From NCBI RefSeq assembly GCF_034120055.1, contig NZ_CP139368.1:2728001-2792000 (forward strand): a DNA stretch of 64,000 nucleotides. Direction: 5' to 3'. Positions 46,574-54,840 of the stretch are shown here, piece by piece. Made by a program: the position numbers and the translations under genes. The stretch is from Microbacterium rhizosphaerae. GTDB taxonomy: Bacteria > Actinomycetota > Actinomycetes > Actinomycetales > Microbacteriaceae. Positions within the stretch are counted from its first letter, which is position 1. Each line of letters opens with the position of its first letter. Below the pieces are notes generated by a model. It saw only the letters and a list, made by a program, of their open reading frames with translations, did not search any database and was not told the origin of the DNA.

Positions 46574-46706
46574 TCGTGCCCCGGTATCGCGGACGCGCCA
46601 AGCACAACCGCGAGCACAAGGCCTGTGCCTTCAGGCCGACCGCGACCCTGGTCGAGCAATGCCGCTTACCCGCTGATCCCTCCGCGCACAGGGCCGCGCG
46701 CCGCGC

Positions 46707-46748
46707 AGGTCGAAAGTCCTCCGCCGTGAGTTGCACGAGGCATACGCT
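46707..46748 (+). promoter_or_regulatory. DosR-like box A and -10 upstream of 174-aa membrane protein gene
   Basis: Box AGGTCGAAAGTCCT (46707-46720; other strand AGGACTTTCGACCT) lies upstream of -10 TACGCT (46743-46748). Predicted +1 is near 46755, so the box centre is at about -41.5. A weaker palindrome GGCCTG-N6-CAGGCC sits at 46619-46636. Confidence 0.6.
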
Positions 46749-46800
46749 CATCGCGCCCCGGGCAATGGCGACGTGGTTCGAGCCTGAAGGGACGTGCCCT

Positions 46801-47325
46801 ATGGAGACAGACCTGTTCGTCCACTTCGCCGAGATCGCCGGTGTCTTCGTCGGGTTCGGTGCACTGATCAGTGTGCGCAGCGCTCCGGTGAGCGATGTGC
46901 ACAGTGTTGTCTACCTGCAAGGCGTCCTCGGACTGGGAGTCTGGGTGGTCATCTCCGCCCTCATCCCCATCGCGGTCAGCCAATATGGCGTCGACGACCA
47001 CTGGCTGTGGCTATCCTGCGCCGTGGTGGCCATCGCCATCTGGGCCATCTTCATGATTGTCTTCAATCGCAGTTCGGATTCCCGACAGCTGAGCCGCAGC
47101 CGACAACGGATCGATCGGATCTTCCCCTTTGTCGGACTGCCGCTGAACGTCTGCATTGCGGGGAGCATGGTGCTCATCATCACCAATCTCTCGCCGGGCA
47201 ACGACGTGGCGCTCTACGTCACGGGGCTCACCGCGGCAGTGATCTTCGCCGGCTATACCCTGCTAGCACTCGTCATGAGCCAACAGCGCGGTTCCGGCGG
47301 GGACAAACGACAGGGCGAGCCGTAG
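46801..47325 (+). CDS. Membrane protein of unknown function (island gene, 174 aa)
   Basis: A 174-residue protein with about five hydrophobic segments (roughly 8-28, 38-60, 64-86, 105-128, 134-156). It opens METDLFVHFAEIAGVFVGFGALISVR, a start seen in a widespread family of uncharacterised membrane proteins. GAAGGGA at 46786-46792 supports ATG 46801; in-frame ATG 46765 is nearer the predicted +1. Codons with A/T in third position are more frequent than in the housekeeping genes. It lies downstream of DosR-like box A. No function can be assigned. Confidence 0.75.
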   Translation: METDLFVHFAEIAGVFVGFGALISVRSAPVSDVHSVVYLQGVLGLGVWVVISALIPIAVSQYGVDDHWLWLSCAVVAIAIWAIFMIVFNRSSDSRQLSRSRQRIDRIFPFVGLPLNVCIAGSMVLIITNLSPGNDVALYVTGLTAAVIFAGYTLLALVMSQQRGSGGDKRQGEP

Positions 47326-47497
47326 AGGCGCGGTCAAGGTAGTACGCCGTCAAGTGAAGCATCATGCCCAACACGAAGCTCCCCCTGCATCCAGCCAACG
47401 AGTCGCGAAGGGACCGCTGCCAGGGATGGGTGACGAACGAGCAAATCGCGAAAGACTCTGCGCGGCGGCGTATCTGTCGCAGGCGAACCTGCTGCGC

Positions 47498-48706
47498 TCA
47501 CGGAAGGATCGCGTTGAGGAGCCGCTCCGCGTACACCTCGCCCGAAACGCTGATCAGGAACATCACCGTCGGCACGAGCAGCCCTGCGGCGGTGTGGAGC
47601 ACGGTGTGGCTCGCCGAGATCGTGACCGGGGATTCCCGGATCCGCGTGTAGAGGTCCAGCAGGCCGCGCAATCGCGCTGATTCGTCGGTGGCGGGGTCGA
47701 CCGTCCGCGGGTCGAACGCGGCGATGCGGTGGCGCAACGGGGCGAGCTGCCGCTCACGAGCGCGCCGCACGATCTTGCGGATGCTGCCTCGGATCCCGAA
47801 CGTGGTGAGGATCACGGTGACGTAGCCGAAGCCGGTGAATCCGGCCGCGATCGGGAGCACGAGCGGCGAGCGCCACGAGACGAGCACGATCGTGAGGATC
47901 ATGTAGAACGTCATCCACAGTCCTGTGGCCCAGGCGAACCCGATCTGGGTGGAGAGGGCTCTCCCGACCTCGGGCGAATCGGCGGGGCTCGCCCAGAACA
48001 GGTCGTGGTCGTATCGGGCCTCGCGCGACATGACGACCCAGGCGGTGGGTGTCGCGGTGACGGCGCCGAAGTCGAACAGGAGGAGCGCGATGAGCACGAG
48101 CGTTCCCGCGGCGATCTGGGTCAGCGCATCGGGCATCAGCAGCCAGGCGCAGCCGAGGGTGGTGACCGTCACGAGCGCGCCACTCAGGACCGCGGTCGAC
48201 AGCCGCATCCACTTCCGGGCGAATGCCGCGAGGTCCACGGCATCCGACTCGTGGGTGAGGGTGGGAAGCAGCGCCATCGCATCGTTCACCATCGCCTTGA
48301 AGCCGGGCCGGGCGGGTTCGTCGAGCGGAGGCATCGCGAGTCGTGCGACCGAGTCGACGAACGCGTAGAAGGCCAAGACGATCACCCAGCCTAGCCAGTT
48401 CACGCGCACCCAGTCCCCGGCCACGGCGGTGGCGATCAGCGCCAGACCCAGCCGGGCTACCACGCCGGTCAGTCCCATAGTGACGGAGGCGCCCACGCTG
48501 TAGTAGGGCTGGCCGAGCTTGCGCCTTACCCAGTTCTCGGGCCGACGGAAGACGTAGTAGACGTCCGACCCGTAGCGTCGGCAGATCTCCTCTACAGCGG
48601 CTTCGAACCGAGCGCTCCGTGCGGGCCTCTCGGCCGCCGGCGAGGCGGGCGGAGCGCCGATCGCCGGCGCGGCAGCGGCGTGCATGCGGGATGCGGTGTC
48701 GACCAC
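47498..48706 (-). CDS. Multi-pass membrane protein of unknown function (island gene, 402 aa)
   Basis: A 402-residue protein. The soluble N-terminus (~65 residues) includes FEAAVEEICRRYGSDVYYVFRRPENWVRRKLGQPYYSVG, then about seven hydrophobic segments with a central loop (PALDEPARPGFKAMVNDAMALLPTLTH region) and a basic cytoplasmic stretch (IRKIVRRARERQLAPLRHRIAAF) before the last helix. No family recognised. GGGGAGG at 48721-48715 fits GTG 48706 with an 8-nt spacer; GTG 48715 overlaps that site. DosR-like box B lies upstream. It converges toward the 174-aa membrane protein gene; the 172-bp gap between holds nothing recognised. Confidence 0.72.
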   Translation of the reverse strand: MVDTASRMHAAAAPAIGAPPASPAAERPARSARFEAAVEEICRRYGSDVYYVFRRPENWVRRKLGQPYYSVGASVTMGLTGVVARLGLALIATAVAGDWVRVNWLGWVIVLAFYAFVDSVARLAMPPLDEPARPGFKAMVNDAMALLPTLTHESDAVDLAAFARKWMRLSTAVLSGALVTVTTLGCAWLLMPDALTQIAAGTLVLIALLLFDFGAVTATPTAWVVMSREARYDHDLFWASPADSPEVGRALSTQIGFAWATGLWMTFYMILTIVLVSWRSPLVLPIAAGFTGFGYVTVILTTFGIRGSIRKIVRRARERQLAPLRHRIAAFDPRTVDPATDESARLRGLLDLYTRIRESPVTISASHTVLHTAAGLLVPTVMFLISVSGEVYAERLLNAILP

Positions 48707-49011
48707 GTTGATCACCTCCCCAGTGTTGGCTTGGGCGGGCTTGCGCCCGAAGCGTAACGGGCCGAGGGGCCGCGCACGAGGGTCTTTCGTCCTCCCGCGT
48801 CCCGCTTCGTGACCGGTCGCGCGGAAGCGCTGCGGCAGGCGGCAGATGAGAGCGGGCCCACTCAGCGGAGGCCGACGGCACCCGCCAACGAGGATGTCGC
48901 GACGACGCCCACAACTTGATCGGGAACGAGCGCACGGGGAGCCGTCCGCGAGGTACCTTCACCGGGCGATGCCCGCTGAGGGATCCATCGGACCTGCGTG
49001 AAGGTGTCGAG
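48707..49011. other. Intergenic region between membrane protein gene and SRPBCC fragment
   Basis: About 305 bp. The left part holds the leader, -10 (TACGCT) and DosR-like box B for the 402-aa protein. From about 48795 to 49011 no gene, RNA or repeat was recognised. Confidence 0.6.
48751..48793 (-). promoter_or_regulatory. DosR-like box B and -10 upstream of 402-aa membrane protein gene
   Basis: Box GGGTCTTTCGTCCT (48780-48793, plus strand) lies upstream of minus-strand -10 TACGCT (48756-48751). Predicted +1 is near 48744 and the box centre at about -42.5. The -10 is identical to that at box A. Confidence 0.62.
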
Positions 49012-49200
49012 TCACATCTCGCTCTGCATGCTCTCTCGCACTGCGCGGTTCATGAGCAGCTTCTTGATGCCGCTGAGTTCGGCCTCCAGGGTGAAGGTGA
49101 CCTTCGTTCCTGTTCCTGCGGGTGTGAGGACGTAGCTGCCGACGGGACGGACGGGACCGCTGATGGTCTTGAACGCGTACTTCGTCGGAGCCGGTGTGCG
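49012..49200 (-). pseudogene. C-terminal fragment of an SRPBCC-family protein
   Basis: Reading the minus strand to the TGA at 49012 gives PTKYAFKTISGPVRPVGSYV, then LTPAGTGTKVTFTLEAELSG and IKKLLMNRAVRESMQSEM. This is the C-terminal half of an SRPBCC/polyketide-cyclase-type protein: two beta strands and the long final helix. There is no start codon with a ribosome site and no N-terminal half; the reading loses sense near box C. A truncated remnant of an earlier island gene. Confidence 0.6.
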
Positions 49201-49218
49201 AAGGACCCATCCCGCGCA

Positions 49219-49260
49219 GGGTCGAAAGTCCTTGGTCCGGGCGGGGCTGGCGGTGTTGGC
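49219..49260 (+). promoter_or_regulatory. DosR-like box C and -10 upstream of GH65 gene
   Basis: Box GGGTCGAAAGTCCT (49219-49232; other strand AGGACTTTCGACCC) lies upstream of TTGGCT (49255-49260), a -10 variant. Predicted +1 is near 49267, box centre about -41.5, leaving a leader of some 250 nt before the chosen GH65 start. Confidence 0.55.
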
Positions 49261-49517
49261 TGGGCGTCGATCCAGAGACTGCCGCCCTCCTCGGGCGACG
49301 GCGGCTGGACGAGGAGTCAGATGTCTGCGCCGATGCTGCCTGGGACTGCTGCAGGGAGCCGCCTCTCGCGGCGCCCGAGATGCTCACACGCCCCGACGCT
49401 CGCCGTTCCGGGGCCACTGTGAGGGAGGGGGAGTTGGATCGGGATGCTGGGACCACTAGGTCCGAGCTTGCGGCCCCCACCATTGCAGGGCGCAGCCGCC
49501 GACACGCGGCGGCCGCG
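49261..49517 (+). other. Long leader/intergenic region before GH65 gene
   Basis: About 257 bp with an open frame continuous with GH65 but without conserved residues or a clear ribosome site. It may be untranslated, or the remnant of the missing front part of the HAD domain. An in-frame GTG at 49419 is a possible alternative start. Confidence 0.4.
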
Positions 49518-52220
49518 ATGCGCGCGCCATACCCCGCCGTACTACTGGACGTACTCGGCGCAGGTCACTTCAGGGAGCGGCTCCGTCACGGCGGATTCGA
49601 GGTGATTCTCCTTCCAGGGAAACGCGGGGCGAGCACCGCGCCGGGCTCGAGTGCCGACGGGTTCCGTTCGGCTGCGGCTCGGATCGGCGTCCCGATCGAG
49701 AGTTGCGTGGCGGTGGTCTCTGAACCCAGTCACGCCCGGGCCGCGCGGGAGGCCGGGGTCGGCCTGGTTGTGGGCATCACTGACGTGAAGACCAGGGCTG
49801 CGCTCGAAACCGCCGGCGCCGACCGGGTGCTGGACGATATCGGACAATTGGACCTGGGCGGACTCGCGATCGATCCGTGGAATCTGACCTTCTACGGCTT
49901 CGACTCAGTGCACGAGGGTCACCGCGAGGCGCTCATGGTGACCGGCAATGGGTATGTCGCGACTCGAGGTGCCCAGGGGGAACGAACCGAGGGCCGTATC
50001 CATTACCCGGGCACCTACCTCGCCGGCGTCAACGACACGGCCTCAGCTCGCTCGCATGGACGGACCGTGCGCGAAGAACACCTGGTCAATTTGCCGAACT
50101 GGCTAGCGTTCGACCTTCGCATCGGCGCAGGATCTTGGTGGTCTGAGCAAACGGAGTCTGCACTCGAAGAGGAGGTCAGGCGGGTCGACCTGCGCCGAGG
50201 TGTGCTCACTCGCACAGCGATCGTGACAGACGGGATCAGGCGCTTGCGTGTGACGCAGACAACGTTCGTGTCGATGCGAGACCGGCATCTGATGATGCAG
50301 GAAACCGTACTCGAGCCGCTCGAATGGGCCGGGAAGATCGACGTGCGAAGCGGCATCGATGCCCACGTGCGCAACAGCAATGCCGGCACCGCTGCACGCC
50401 ACCTGAGCCGACCCCGATTCACTGTGCATGGCGACGCACTGACATGCGAGGTGACCACGAGACACAGTCGCGTCGACGTCGCCTTCGCTGTCCGTCAGAG
50501 CGCGCACGGTCAGATCCGCCGGCAGAACTGGATCGACACCGGCACCGCCGGCCTGCTGCACCTGGAAGCAGCGGTTTCGCCTGCAACGCCACTCCGGATC
50601 AACAAGACTGCGGCGATCGCATCATCCCGCGATCCGGCGATCGACACGGCCGCGGCCGCAGCATTGCGGCACCTCGACGCGGTACCACCCGACCGCATTC
50701 GCCTGCGGCATGAAGCCGCCTGGCAGCGACTGTGGGAACGCTACGGGATCGAGATCGACGCCGACCCCCAGAGTCAGGCCGTCCTCAACCTGCACGTCTT
50801 CCATGTTCTCCAGGCCGTATCCGATCACACGCCTGAGGGGGCGGGCATCCCAGCGCGCGGGCTGCACGGGGAGGGATACCTCGGCCACGTGTTCTGGGAC
50901 GAACTGTTCGTGCTTCCGGTCCTGGGTCTGCGAAACCCGCAGATCGCCCGTACGCAGCTCGATTACCGCTGGAACCGCCTGGAAGCCGCACGCGCGGCCG
51001 CGGCGGAGGCGGGTTTACCGGGCGCGCGGTTCCCTTGGCAATCCGGCACCGACGGCACAGAGCAAACCCCTGGCGCCCTCTTCAATCCCCGATCACACCG
51101 CTGGATGCCTGATCATTCCGCCCGCCAGCTGCACGTCGGCCTGGCCGTGGCCTACAACGCCTGGCAGTTCTACGAGCTCACCGCCGACCTCGTCTGGCTC
51201 GCCGACCGGGGCGCCGAGCTCATCATCGAAGTGGTCCGTCATTTCGTGGCAATGGCCGAGCACGACCCAGCGGATGGACGCTTTCACATCGACGGCGTGA
51301 TGGGGCCGGACGAGTACCACGACGGGCCACCGACTGCGCCCGGAACCGGACTGCGCGACAACGCCTACACCAACGTCATGACCGCCTGGAGCTGTCGGCG
51401 CGCCCTTGACGCGCTCGACCGTCTCCGCGGACATCTCGCGGACGACCTGATCGCTCGCCTCGACATCCGTGCCGAGGAACGTGAGCAGTGGTCGCTTATT
51501 GCGACAAGGATGTTCCTGCCCCTGCACGGTCGGGGTGTGATCAGCCAATTCGATGGCTACGACCAGCTCGAGGAGTTCGACTGGAACGCCTACCGGTCCC
51601 GCTACGGGAACGTCGAGCGCCTCGATCTCATCCTCGAGGCCGAGGGCGATACCACCAACCGCTATAAGGTCGCCAAACAGGCCGACGTGCTCATGCTCGT
51701 GTACACCCTCGGAGTCGATGTGCTCACTGAATTGCTGGATGAGCTCGGCTATCAGGCCGACCTGCACGCCTCACTCGACTACTACCTGCCGAGGACCTCG
51801 CACGGCTCGACTCTCAGTCGGGTCGTCACCGCCTCAGTGCTCGCCCAGTTGCGCCCCGACGAATCGTGGCCTACGTTCCGGGAGGCACTCGACGCCGACC
51901 TCGACGACACCCAGGGCGGCACCACCCGGCAAGGCATTCACCTCGGCGCCATGGCCGGCACGGTCGACCTCGCCGTTCGAAGCTACGCCGGCCTCAGAAC
52001 TCGCAACGACGAACTGCAATTCACTCCGCGGCTGCCCGCAGAGCTGCGAGGCGCCTCTTTCCGGCTTCATTACCGTGGCCAGGCGCTCGAGGTGCACCTC
52101 GACCACGCCAGACTCACCATCCGATCCCACGCATCCAGCGCGCCACCGATCCAGGTCACCGTGGGCGACCGCAGCGTGGCACTGGCGCCGGGCGCCGAAC
52201 ACAGATTCAGTCTTTCCTGA
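49518..52220 (+). CDS. GH65 glycoside phosphorylase with vestigial HAD (beta-phosphoglucomutase-like) domain
   Basis: A 900-residue protein. GH65 covers residues ~118-890: DPWNLTFYGFDSVHEGHREALMVTGNGYVATRG opens the N-terminal beta domain, the general-acid Glu is in DGVMGPDEYHDGP near 597, phosphate-loop HGSTLS near 762, and ATSHGS-type ending. Family members phosphorolyse maltose, trehalose, kojibiose and similar sugars. Residues 1-~115 resemble a shrunken HAD domain: AVLLDVLG stands where DLDG is expected, and VVSEPSHARAAREAG where an EDA motif is. So mutase activity is unlikely. Preceded by DosR-like box C. Start uncertain. Confidence 0.85.
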   Translation: MRAPYPAVLLDVLGAGHFRERLRHGGFEVILLPGKRGASTAPGSSADGFRSAAARIGVPIESCVAVVSEPSHARAAREAGVGLVVGITDVKTRAALETAGADRVLDDIGQLDLGGLAIDPWNLTFYGFDSVHEGHREALMVTGNGYVATRGAQGERTEGRIHYPGTYLAGVNDTASARSHGRTVREEHLVNLPNWLAFDLRIGAGSWWSEQTESALEEEVRRVDLRRGVLTRTAIVTDGIRRLRVTQTTFVSMRDRHLMMQETVLEPLEWAGKIDVRSGIDAHVRNSNAGTAARHLSRPRFTVHGDALTCEVTTRHSRVDVAFAVRQSAHGQIRRQNWIDTGTAGLLHLEAAVSPATPLRINKTAAIASSRDPAIDTAAAAALRHLDAVPPDRIRLRHEAAWQRLWERYGIEIDADPQSQAVLNLHVFHVLQAVSDHTPEGAGIPARGLHGEGYLGHVFWDELFVLPVLGLRNPQIARTQLDYRWNRLEAARAAAAEAGLPGARFPWQSGTDGTEQTPGALFNPRSHRWMPDHSARQLHVGLAVAYNAWQFYELTADLVWLADRGAELIIEVVRHFVAMAEHDPADGRFHIDGVMGPDEYHDGPPTAPGTGLRDNAYTNVMTAWSCRRALDALDRLRGHLADDLIARLDIRAEEREQWSLIATRMFLPLHGRGVISQFDGYDQLEEFDWNAYRSRYGNVERLDLILEAEGDTTNRYKVAKQADVLMLVYTLGVDVLTELLDELGYQADLHASLDYYLPRTSHGSTLSRVVTASVLAQLRPDESWPTFREALDADLDDTQGGTTRQGIHLGAMAGTVDLAVRSYAGLRTRNDELQFTPRLPAELRGASFRLHYRGQALEVHLDHARLTIRSHASSAPPIQVTVGDRSVALAPGAEHRFSLS

Positions 52221-52581
52221 ACACTGACTACCTCACTCAGCCGTTCCCTTCCACACCTTCGGGCCGCCGCCACAGCGGCGATTCTCCATTGCGCGCGGCG
52301 CGTGCGGAACAGACAGCGGCCGCACGACGGGTTACCGGGACGAGGGTCGTCCGGCGCCACCAGGCTGCCGTCCGCACCTGCCTCGCACGATGGGCGTCCC
52401 GGGTCCAAAGTCCCGGCCTCTCTCCCTGAACCGCGTGCATCCTGGTGAGGGCCGGATGCGTGGACAGCATCGCAACCGCCGACCGCGAGCCACCCGGAGG
52501 TGAGAGATGGCCTGACAGCAGGCGTGCGGCGACCCTCGCGGACGCTGCGCCCGTACACCGATTTCCAGGGAGGAGTACGAC
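52221..52581. other. Intergenic region between GH65 and ABC exporter genes
   Basis: 361 bp. It holds an inverted repeat GGACGA-GGG-TCGTCC (52338-52352), a possible terminator for GH65, then DosR-like box D and its -10. GGGAGGAG at 52570-52577 is the ribosome site of the next gene. No coding sequence recognised. Confidence 0.6.
52401..52443 (+). promoter_or_regulatory. DosR-like box D and -10 upstream of ABC exporter genes
   Basis: Box GGGTCCAAAGTCCC (52401-52414; other strand GGGACTTTGGACCC, the best palindrome of the five) lies upstream of -10-like CATCCT (52438-52443). Predicted +1 is near 52450, box centre about -42.5. Leader of about 130 nt. Confidence 0.6.
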
Positions 52582-53514
52582 ATGGATCCTGTTCCACCGA
52601 TCGTCACCCAGGATCTGGCGAAGCGCTATCGGCACAGCCTCGCTTTGGACGGGGTGAGCCTGACGTTGGAGCCTGGTGAGGTGTTCGGCTACCTCGGTCC
52701 TAACGGCGCGGGCAAGACCACGACGATCCGGCTTCTGATGGGCATGCTGCGTCCCAGCTCCGGGCGCGCGGTGGTGTGCGGCTTGGATGCGTGGAGCGAG
52801 GCTCGGGATGTCCATCGCGTCGTCGGGTATGTTCCCGGCGAGCCTTCGGTCTATACGCGACTCACGGGCGCGCAGCACATCGACTACATCTGCCATCTGC
52901 GGGGGCGCAAGGACCACGCCCGCGCAGTCCAGGTGGCCGAGCGACTGTCGCTCGATCTCACCCGGAGGGCAGGCGTGCTCTCCCGCGGCAACCGGCAGAA
53001 GCTCGCGCTCGTCCTCGCGGTCATGTCCCGGCCGGCGCTTCTCATCCTCGATGAACCGACGTCTGGGCTGGATCCGCTGGTCCAGCATGAGGTCCACTCT
53101 CTCCTGCGCGAACACGCGCAGGACGGCGGGAGCGTGTTCCTCTCCTCGCACGTTCTCGGGGAGGTTCAGCGCGTCGCGACGAGGATCGGGGTCCTCCGCC
53201 AGGGCAAGCTCATCGCCGTGGAGCGCCTCGACGAGCTCAGCGCTCGCTCGCTCCACCGCGTCCGCGCCACGTTCGCGACGCCCGTCAGCGTGGAGGACTT
53301 CGCCGGAATATCGGGAGTGACAAACCTCGTCGCAATCGGCGAGCGCATGAGGTGCGAGGCGCCGCAGTCCGCGCTCGACGCGCTCCTCAAGCGGATCAGC
53401 GCCCACCCGGTCGTCGACTTCGAGTGCGCCGAATCGGACCTCGAGGACATGTTCATGACCTACTACGGAGGCGACCACGATGCTGAGCACCGTGTTCACG
53501 AAGTCGCTGTATGA
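52582..53514 (+). CDS. ABC-2 exporter ATP-binding protein
   Basis: A 310-residue ABC ATPase of the DrrA/CcmA-like drug-exporter type. Walker A GYLGPNGAGKTTTIRLLMGML near residue 38, Q-loop region GYVPGEPSVYTRLTG, a degenerate signature VLSRGNRQKLALVLAVMS (LSRGN rather than LSGGQ), Walker B LLILDEPTSGLDPLVQ near 155 and switch His FLSSHVLGEV. The C-terminal ~90 residues are the regulatory extension typical of this class. The permease gene starts inside its last 35 nt. Substrate unknown. Confidence 0.93.
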   Translation: MDPVPPIVTQDLAKRYRHSLALDGVSLTLEPGEVFGYLGPNGAGKTTTIRLLMGMLRPSSGRAVVCGLDAWSEARDVHRVVGYVPGEPSVYTRLTGAQHIDYICHLRGRKDHARAVQVAERLSLDLTRRAGVLSRGNRQKLALVLAVMSRPALLILDEPTSGLDPLVQHEVHSLLREHAQDGGSVFLSSHVLGEVQRVATRIGVLRQGKLIAVERLDELSARSLHRVRATFATPVSVEDFAGISGVTNLVAIGERMRCEAPQSALDALLKRISAHPVVDFECAESDLEDMFMTYYGGDHDAEHRVHEVAV

Positions 53515-54280
53515 CCAGTGGAAGGCCCTGCTGTGGTGGGCCCTCGCCATCGTTCTGCTGATCGCGACCTACGTCGCCATCTGGCCCAGCATGCGGGACC
53601 AGCCCTCGATGGCCGACTTCCTCAACCAGATGCCCGAGGCACTGCGGAGCCTGTTCGCTACGACCGGTGCCGATCTCACGACACCGGTCGGCTACATCCA
53701 GGTCGAGCTCATGTCGTTCATGGCTCCGATCGTCCTGCTGCTGTATGCCATCGGGCGCGGGGTGTCTGCGGTCGCGGGTGAAGAGGAGGCGCACACGCTC
53801 GAGTTGCTCCTGTCCACACCGCTCGCCCGTGCGCGGATCATCGCGGAGAAGTTCGCAGCCATGACCGTCGGCGTCGCCTTCCTCGCCGCCGTCACCGGGT
53901 TCTCCCTCGTCCTCGAGGGATCGCTCGCAGATATGAACCTCCCCGCCCAGAACGTCGCCGCAGCCATGGTGCATCTCGGATTGCTCGCCCTCGTCTTCGG
54001 CACGCTCGCCCTGGTGCTCTCGGCATCCACCGGTCGCACAGGGCTCAGTCGCGGTATTCCTGCCGCCCTCGCCGTGGCTGCCTACGCGGTCAACGGCCTG
54101 GCACCCCTCGTGGACTGGCTGGAACCGCTGCAGAAGTACTCGCCGTTCTTCCAGTACGCCGGACACGATCCTCTCCGCAACGGCATCGACATGACCGACG
54201 TCCTGGTCGCTGCCGCAACCTGCCTCGTGCTGGTCGCCCTCGCGGCGATCGGCTTCCGATCCCGGGACACCGCCGCCTGA
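53480..54280 (+). CDS. ABC-2 type exporter permease
   Basis: A 266-residue protein with six hydrophobic segments (around 18-38, 75-98, 115-140, 155-178, 185-205, 238-258). The loop after TM2 has AGEEEAHTLELLLSTPLARARIIAEKFAAM, the amphipathic ATPase-contact region of ABC-2 permeases. It overlaps the ATPase gene by 35 nt, so the two are made together as one exporter. The cargo is not predictable; family members export antibiotics, lipids or polysaccharides. Confidence 0.92.
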   Translation: MLSTVFTKSLYDQWKALLWWALAIVLLIATYVAIWPSMRDQPSMADFLNQMPEALRSLFATTGADLTTPVGYIQVELMSFMAPIVLLLYAIGRGVSAVAGEEEAHTLELLLSTPLARARIIAEKFAAMTVGVAFLAAVTGFSLVLEGSLADMNLPAQNVAAAMVHLGLLALVFGTLALVLSASTGRTGLSRGIPAALAVAAYAVNGLAPLVDWLEPLQKYSPFFQYAGHDPLRNGIDMTDVLVAAATCLVLVALAAIGFRSRDTAA

Positions 54281-54288
54281 CGAGCAAG

Positions 54289-54330
54289 GGGACCTTCGGC
54301 CCTGGCCGCCTGGGCGGCACCGTGCAGAGT
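54289..54330 (+). promoter_or_regulatory. DosR-like box E and -10 upstream of 167-aa membrane protein gene
   Basis: Box GGGACCTTCGGCCC (54289-54302) lies upstream of -10-like CAGAGT (54325-54330). Predicted +1 falls on the ATG at 54337, giving a leaderless mRNA with the box centre at -41.5. The box begins 8 bp after the permease stop codon. Confidence 0.62.
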
Positions 54331-54336
54331 GTGAAT

Positions 54337-54840
54337 ATGCCATCCCGACCACCCCTCACGGACAGCACCGGAGACCCCACGCTCAACGGTGGGAGCTCCG
54401 GACGCACGACGATGCGATCGGCACAAGTGCTCGGTATCGCGGGGACCGTGCTCGCCGGCATCCCGATCGCCGCGCCACTGGTCCTGCTGCTGGTCTCCCT
54501 CCTCACCGGGCGGGGAGCGCGCCTCGACTTCCTCCTGCCCGGCGAACTGATCGTCGCCGTTGTCCTCGGCGGACTGTGCCTGCTCGCGGCGGCGCTCCTG
54601 AGTCAGGGACTCCGCGTGATCGTCGGGACCACCCTCGGAGTGGTCGTGGCGTTGTTCGCACTCGTCGGCGTCACGGCGGACGCCACGGGGCTCGCGTCAG
54701 GTGCGACCCAGCCCGAGGGATGGCCCTTGGTTGTCGTCGGGACTGTATACGGCCTGTACGTCCTGGCGGTGATCGGTCAGTTCGCCGTCGGGGTGATGCT
54801 GTGCCGCCGGCTCTTCGCAGGCGAGCGGCACCGTCGGTGA
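54337..54840 (+). CDS. Four-helix membrane protein of unknown function (island gene, 167 aa)
   Basis: A 167-residue protein. The first ~28 residues are polar (MPSRPPLTDSTGDPTLNGGSSGRTT), followed by four hydrophobic segments at about 32-55, 66-88, 92-112 and 128-152 and a basic tail RRLFAGERHRR. The ATG coincides with the +1 predicted from box E; GTG 54322 is an in-frame alternative. No family recognised. Confidence 0.7.
   Translation: MPSRPPLTDSTGDPTLNGGSSGRTTMRSAQVLGIAGTVLAGIPIAAPLVLLLVSLLTGRGARLDFLLPGELIVAVVLGGLCLLAAALLSQGLRVIVGTTLGVVVALFALVGVTADATGLASGATQPEGWPLVVVGTVYGLYVLAVIGQFAVGVMLCRRLFAGERHRR

Follow-up and report, generated by a model that had tools for sequence, protein, structure and literature searches.

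The window analysed here, a stretch of 64,000 nucleotides from Microbacterium rhizosphaerae (positions 2728001-2792000 of a genome that forms a single contig of 4,057,055 bases), contains five palindromic boxes of the DosR/DevR type together with a GH65 phosphorylase-type gene, an ABC-2 exporter operon and three genes for membrane-type proteins. We consider it very likely that the part of the window holding them (46600..54840) belongs to a DosR/DevR-type dormancy regulon as a satellite island, the main island of the regulon lying elsewhere in the same genome. The boxes, with their matrix scores and their ranks in the window, and the genes beside them are as follows (window coordinates; protein lengths in amino acids, aa):

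46707..46720, + strand: DosR-type box 1 (AGGTCGAAAGTCCT; 14.6 bits, rank 5), serving the 46801 gene, with the -10-like hexamer TACGCT at 46743-46748
46801..47325, + strand: 174-aa membrane-type protein, no Pfam match
47498..48706, - strand: 402-aa orphan membrane-type protein, no Pfam match
48780..48793, - strand: DosR-type box 2 (GGGTCTTTCGTCCT at 48780, AGGACGAAAGACCC on the - strand; 15.7 bits, rank 3), serving the 47498-48706 gene, with -10-like TACGCT on the - strand at 48756-48751
49219..49232, + strand: DosR-type box 3 (GGGTCGAAAGTCCT; 15.7 bits, rank 2), preceding the GH65 gene, with TTGGCT at 49256-49261
49518..52220, + strand: GH65 phosphorylase-type protein, 900 aa from ATG 49518, with ATG 49380 also possible
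52401..52414, + strand: DosR-type box 4 (GGGTCCAAAGTCCC; 17.2 bits, rank 1), serving the ABC operon, with CATCCT at 52438-52443
52582..53514, + strand: ABC transporter ATPase (Pfam ABC_tran, 3.6e-26)
53480..54280, + strand: ABC-2 permease (Pfam ABC2_membrane_2, 2.1e-18)
54289..54302, + strand: DosR-type box 5 (GGGACCTTCGGCCC; 15.7 bits, rank 4), with CAGAGT at 54325-54330
54337..54840, + strand: 167-aa membrane-type protein with an in-frame ATG at 54337, no Pfam match

The five boxes had been proposed, as too regular for chance, by an earlier sequence-only reading of this DNA; their sequences and coordinates proved exact in every case, and 5 of 5 are intergenic. To avoid circularity, we kept them out of the scoring matrix, which was symmetrised and trained solely on 18 pattern sites of the main island. 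With this independent matrix the five boxes reached 14.6-17.2 bits and took ranks 1-5 among 63,987 window positions, and the sixth-ranked site, at 9.95 bits, lay 4.7 bits below the fifth. In 100 dinucleotide shuffles, sites of at least 14.64 bits numbered 0.16 on average and two at most, with never more than one within 7.6 kb. A search of the whole genome with RGGACNNWNGNCCY returned 83 rows compared with 39 for the reversed control, and the 71 distinct sites were divided into 18 in 2416527-2464861, five in the window and 48 elsewhere. The density of these remaining 48 predicts 0.09 sites per 7.6 kb, where the window has five. Using gene calls from a simple codon model made for this analysis, we found all 18 main-island sites to be intergenic, like the five of the window, compared with 20 of the 48 sites elsewhere. 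The question raised by the sequence-only reading, whether such boxes are equally common elsewhere in the genome, is thus answered in the negative by their clustering and their intergenic excess, and the claim that they do not arise by chance stands: a palindromic box precedes the target genes more often than chance would place it there.

It had further been claimed that each box precedes a gene and keeps a fixed distance from a -10-like hexamer. The first of these is right, with the remarks that ATG 54337 coincides with the proposed +1 and that the GH65 start is uncertain. For the second, we scored 43 box-to-gene orientations outside the window in which the gene start lies 25-160 bp away, counting divergent sites both ways and leaving out boxes inside genes or further from a gene start. 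Measured from the box centre, the pattern NANNNT was counted 14 times at 32 bp and five times at 33 bp, compared with an average of 1.2 for all tested offsets; 18 of the 43 orientations carried it at 32 or 33 bp, and other offset pairs reached at most 5/43. Four of the five window promoters have it at 32 or 33 bp, and a second -10 score gave the same optimum, 32 outside the window and 33 within. The fixed geometry is therefore borne out by the same 32-33-bp peak in the other orientations, except at 49219, where TTGGCT does not fit. Boxes at a fixed distance from a predicted -10 are a feature of DosR/DevR regulons, and parts of a study of Mycobacterium tuberculosis target promoters place the proximal DevR site over the -35 element (PMC3029386). 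At window position 54289 and at genome positions 2432608, 2448636, 854805 and 1716812 box centre and start codon are 41.5-43.5 bp apart, which puts the codon at the predicted +1 and suggests leaderless DosR-type transcripts at these sites; the 54337-54840 gene, with its ATG exactly at the proposed +1, is probably leaderless.

The regulator, correctly reported as absent from the window, is encoded elsewhere in the genome. Reading 80 kb around the 18-site cluster revealed a main island of about 50 kb (2414809-2464900), approximately 330-370 kb upstream of the window boxes, that carries the 18 pattern boxes and both components of a signalling system (genome coordinates):

2414809-2415444: devR, encoding a DevR orthologue with Response_reg and GerE domains
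2440389-2442062: gene for a DosS/DosT-like kinase, following a 19.8-bit box at 2440231

The best Protein Data Bank (PDB) match of the DevR protein is M. tuberculosis DevR (3c3w, E 1.3e-64), followed by VraR (1.4e-41), and it was the single match in the genome at E<=1e-40 (20 scored of 50 family candidates at first look). It keeps Asp54 and the recognition segment AEKTVKNYVS, and is classed as a NarL-family DevR orthologue with a predicted phospho-acceptor Asp and recognition helix. devR is the third gene of an apparent Usp (universal stress protein)-flavodoxin-devR operon after a perfect box at 2416527, so DevR probably controls its own expression. The Usp gene ahead of devR resembles the Rv3134c-devR-devS arrangement. 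In the kinase, Pfam recognized GAF in two stretches, HisKA_3 and HATPase; the protein matches the GAF-A domains of DosT and DosS (E 5e-42 to 1e-37; DosT GAF-A 2vzw, E 5.2e-42) and keeps HHPPM in its own GAF-A. It is a predicted DosS/DosT-type kinase with a double GAF and a putative haem ligand, which we take to be a His of HHPPM. A 544-aa gene near devR was also considered as the kinase and rejected, being an IlvD-type dehydratase by Pfam; the DosS-like kinase lies 25 kb off.

A box also stands a short way ahead of other main-island genes, among them those for two Usp, two pyridoxamine oxidase-like proteins, a BON protein, an AMP-binding enzyme, PPDK, an alcohol dehydrogenase and two baeRF proteins, and of the apparent operons DUF805-phosphoribosyltransferase-esterase, SHOCT-flavodoxin and GyrI-like-cation ATPase; the island also has an Hsp20 gene, whose nearest boxes lie 0.75-0.8 kb upstream. 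Core targets of a DosR/DevR regulon, namely predicted Usp, PPDK, baeRF and GyrI-like/cation ATPase genes, are thus boxed. The baeRF proteins are related to Balon, and Rv2629 is the hypoxia-induced, ribosome-binding M. tuberculosis homologue, according to parts of one report (PMC10901736); one of the two main-island baeRF proteins matches a ribosome-hibernation model, below its cut-off. The DosR-type reading of the boxes, proposed from the window alone, is in this way supported by a DevR orthologue, a DosS/DosT-like kinase, 18 further boxes and dormancy genes in the same genome. Outside both islands, high-scoring intergenic boxes were observed at genome positions 1518390, 1518428, 1082347, 1716812, 553344 and 3171512, and their neighbours, as read from the sequence only, are membrane-type proteins, a membrane protein-flavodoxin pair, a phosphoribosyltransferase-like gene and an ArsA-like ATPase gene.

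We then compared 88 congeners, 29 of which have a DosS match at E<=1e-60 (dosS+) and 59 of which do not (dosS-). Hits of the box GGGACNWWNGNCCY averaged 11.8 in dosS+ and 6.4 in dosS- congeners, and those of the reversed control 9.1 and 7.7 (Mann-Whitney, p 1e-7 for hits and p 0.002 for hits minus control). The genome studied here, with 45 box hits against three control hits, was the highest of the 89 genus members. Of 30 dosS loci (own included), 26 had one or more boxes of at least 12 bits, compared with 2 of 21 distant-GH65 control loci. Box number therefore rises with the presence of dosS, an effect that is clear, though not free of exceptions. The kinase and regulator genes, about 25 kb apart here, are adjacent in several congeners. 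Five congeners (G001, G002, G014, G023 and G082 in our numbering) have two or three regulators matching DevR at E<=1e-40, and G001 and G023 have two DosS-like kinases each, hinting at duplicated DosR systems in some congeners.

In the product of the GH65 gene, Pfam found the GH65 N, M and C domains, all in a search on a longer translation of the same frame, and the product from 49518 is identical to entry P0001 of the protein collection. Its N-terminal part is degenerate HAD/beta-PGM-like, with no HAD domain recognized by Pfam; such a domain is present in 101 of the 120 GH65 relatives listed, one of which is named Rv2006/MT2062. The protein is a predicted relative of Rv2006/OtsB1, and Rv2006 is a DosR-regulated gene according to parts of two reports (PMC2867773; PMC12090744). 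At nine close GH65 loci, a box precedes the gene in our genome (G000), G052 and G086, all dosS+, with six further boxes within 14 kb around the gene in G052; the dosS- genomes G051, G013 and G094 have no box before it. Conservation of this box across the order was considered and rejected, the box being present in G052 and G086 and absent in G089, G103 and G111. Two features lie between box 2 and the GH65 gene:

49018..49239, - strand: SRPBCC/Polyketide_cyc2-type remnant, C-terminal half only, running into box 3
49321..49422, + strand: open frame of 33 codons that has a good ribosome site, GAGGAG, and lies after box 3 and before the GH65 gene

The remnant (PF10604, E 1e-5, profile 66-131 of 142, 26.3 bits for a cut-off of 27.4) is, as predicted from this partial match, a broken gene at an island joint that lost its 5' part near box 3. 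The 33-codon frame is perhaps a small gene, a leader or chance. ATG 49321 was tried as a GH65 start (966 aa) and rejected, as it is out of frame and opens the 33-codon frame.

Permease orthologues at 58-62% were found in three genomes of other families (G105, G110 and G111), and two of these genomes have a box directly ahead of the ATPase gene of the ABC operon, G110 (13.1 bits at 43.5 bp) and G105 (15.7 bits). A 15-codon open frame (MRGQHRNRRPRATRR) at window 52456-52503, just past the proposed ABC transcript start, is a possible leader peptide or chance. The 46801 protein was matched in 2 of 147 other relatives (weakly in one) and has 483 matches among 826 candidates in the protein collection; of five named genomes with a homologue, Intrasporangium calvum PheN6 has a 17.0-bit box 96.5 bp ahead of the start. 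The 47498-48706 protein has one weak partial match in the 147 other relatives and at least 34 matches among the best 7,998 candidates scored in the protein search; its model is all-helical (pLDDT 79.8, pTM 0.75), with no Foldseek match at E<=0.001 in the PDB library. Congener G086 encodes a 45% homologue of the 54337 protein behind a 19.6-bit box, with an open frame between.

Part of the satellite island shares ancestry with the main island, through two segments:

52237..52354: homologous to genome 2426884-2426762, a region with a box that lies upstream of a baeRF gene of the main island
54736..54816, + strand: 3' part of the 54337 gene, homologous to the main-island relic 2426734-2426654

The first alignment scores 65, compared with 33 for the best of 300 shuffles and 37 for the best of 241 other genome stretches, and the second reaches 86% over 81 bp (score 107). 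In the main island 27 bp separate the two segments, whose order and orientation agree with those in the window; there, 2,381 bp lie between them, comprising box 4, the ABC operon, box 5 and most of the 54337 gene; the main island thus has both flanks of this module without its interior. Window position 52337 (6.3 bits), inside the first segment, is a decayed copy of the main-island box at 2426766 (18.3 bits). On the simplest reading, the module once belonged to the main island, a copy or the module itself went to the new site, and the interior later disappeared from the old one, although the reverse direction is possible. Accessory island, the term used in the sequence-only reading, suits the three membrane genes, which few or none of the relatives searched carry, but another part has common ancestry with the main island. 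We tentatively suggest, as an idea that may well prove wrong, that environmental actinobacterial DosR regulons grow by moving boxed promoter-gene modules around the chromosome. Here the ABC-exporter module would have been copied or shifted to a place about 350 kb from the main island, which retains both flanks and misses about 2.4 kb between them, and would have become the core of a second island that added the orphan membrane genes and the OtsB1-like GH65 gene under the same switch by oxygen or nitric oxide (NO).

Several observations weigh against taking the stretch for a working part of a DosR-type regulon. Box conservation is patchy across relatives of the targets. The dosS+ genomes G089, G103 and G111, from other families, have no box of at least 12 bits within 1.5 kb upstream of GH65 (G111 has a weak far box of 10.8 bits, and the G089 result covers one of two copies), the G111 ABC operon has no box, and five more distant permease matches (33-39%) have none of at least 12 bits. 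Likewise, 46801 homologues have no box in the 400 bp upstream in Agromyces (2), Terrabacter and Cryobacterium, nor in the approximately 235 bp of upstream sequence available in G117. The GH65 start candidates ATG 49380 and ATG 49518 lie 154.5 and 292.5 bp from the box 3 centre, beyond the usual distance, and a small open frame intervenes. The -10 hexamers are weak, and at 49219 the hexamer TTGGCT departs from NANNNT. Among congeners, the dosS- genomes G028, G040 and G044 reach 15-16 hits all the same, and dosS+ genomes also score slightly higher with the reversed control (p 0.05). Finally, the truncated pieces (the SRPBCC remnant, the degenerate HAD part and the decayed box 52337) reveal that the island is in flux, and some of its promoters could therefore be relics.

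On another reading, the window boxes would be functionless relics, copied from the main DosR island with adjoining genes. The two collinear segments shared with one main-island intergenic region, one of them with a decayed box, would agree with such an origin, as would the SRPBCC remnant and the GH65 N-terminal part, in which no HAD domain is recognized. However, the five boxes hold 14.6-17.2 bits where the recognized relic box fell to 6.3, the -10 spacing is kept in 4/5, only boxes 4 and 5 have a shared segment beside them, the reading frames of the genes are open, and boxes precede several relatives in other genomes; we consider relics unlikely. The boxes might instead be bound by another NarL/FixJ-family regulator with an overlapping half-site, responding to a signal that is maybe not hypoxia or NO. 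The genome has further candidates of this family, and the best NCBIfam model for the DevR protein itself is MadR, at 160.8 of 300 bits and well under the cut-off; yet its DNA-contacting segment is near-identical to that of M. tuberculosis DevR, the single match at E<=1e-40 lies inside the box-rich island behind a perfect box, and the box excess tracks dosS in congeners, making another regulator quite improbable. That GC-rich palindromes were merely picked out by eye would accord with the loose consensus, which at up to three mismatches showed no excess in the window (215 matches against 269 expected in this GC-rich DNA) and for that reason was replaced as a test by the independent matrix. This explanation is already refuted by the matrix ranks, the shuffles, the 0.09 sites expected and the -10 spacing test, and we give it next to no credence.

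For the stretch as a satellite of a DosR/DevR-type regulon, we infer induction by hypoxia or NO, and every biochemical step of the mechanism, from the M. tuberculosis system. Low oxygen, NO or carbon monoxide would be read by haem in the first GAF domain (GAF-A) of the kinase, which would phosphorylate Asp54 of DevR. DevR would then bind boxes whose centres lie approximately 42 bp ahead of the start and which overlap the -35 region, and would aid RNA polymerase at weak -10 sites. This would switch on the GH65 enzyme related to Rv2006/OtsB1, the ABC-2 exporter and the three membrane-type proteins, together with main-island genes for universal stress proteins, baeRF (possible ribosome hibernation), PPDK and others. 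The expected physiology would be storage-sugar turnover by the GH65 enzyme, export and membrane upkeep during oxygen-limited rest.

The system resembles the M. tuberculosis DosR/DevR regulon in its DevR orthologue, its DosT/DosS-like GAF kinase and a palindromic box overlapping -35 (for the overlap, PMC3029386), and also in the cation ATPase, Usp, Hsp20 and baeRF-type genes of its cluster and in a GH65 protein related to Rv2006. It differs in belonging to a Micrococcales-type environmental genus, in its ABC-2 exporter and three membrane-type targets, in its second island and in the distance of about 25 kb between the kinase and regulator genes. With OsdK/OsdR of Streptomyces coelicolor it shares a DosR orthologue in a non-pathogen, a box-rich cluster with Usp and more predicted sites elsewhere; the Streptomyces consensus is AGGGCCGATCGGCCCT, whereas the boxes here are GGGAC-n-(A/T)(A/T)-n-GTCCC with T/A and G/C variants, and the window gene set is not met in the accessible part of the OsdK/OsdR description (PMC5069765). 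DosR regulons outside mycobacteria are thus already known (OsdR). Literature searches, with subscription papers mostly outside their scope, found no DosR regulon for Microbacteriaceae; new, as far as searched, are this member, its targets and the satellite arrangement.

DosR has been studied mostly as the regulator of tuberculosis latency. A complete set of sensor, regulator, box and targets in an environmental-type genus would give a safe, fast model of hypoxia dormancy. Such a set also points to Rv2006/OtsB1-related GH65 enzymes as DosR targets that recur in distant actinobacteria, and it nominates the exporter and the three membrane-type proteins as dormancy genes. The shared segments would provide a concrete case of regulon spread within one chromosome, and, if modules do move in this way, the orphan membrane proteins would be unstudied dormancy factors.

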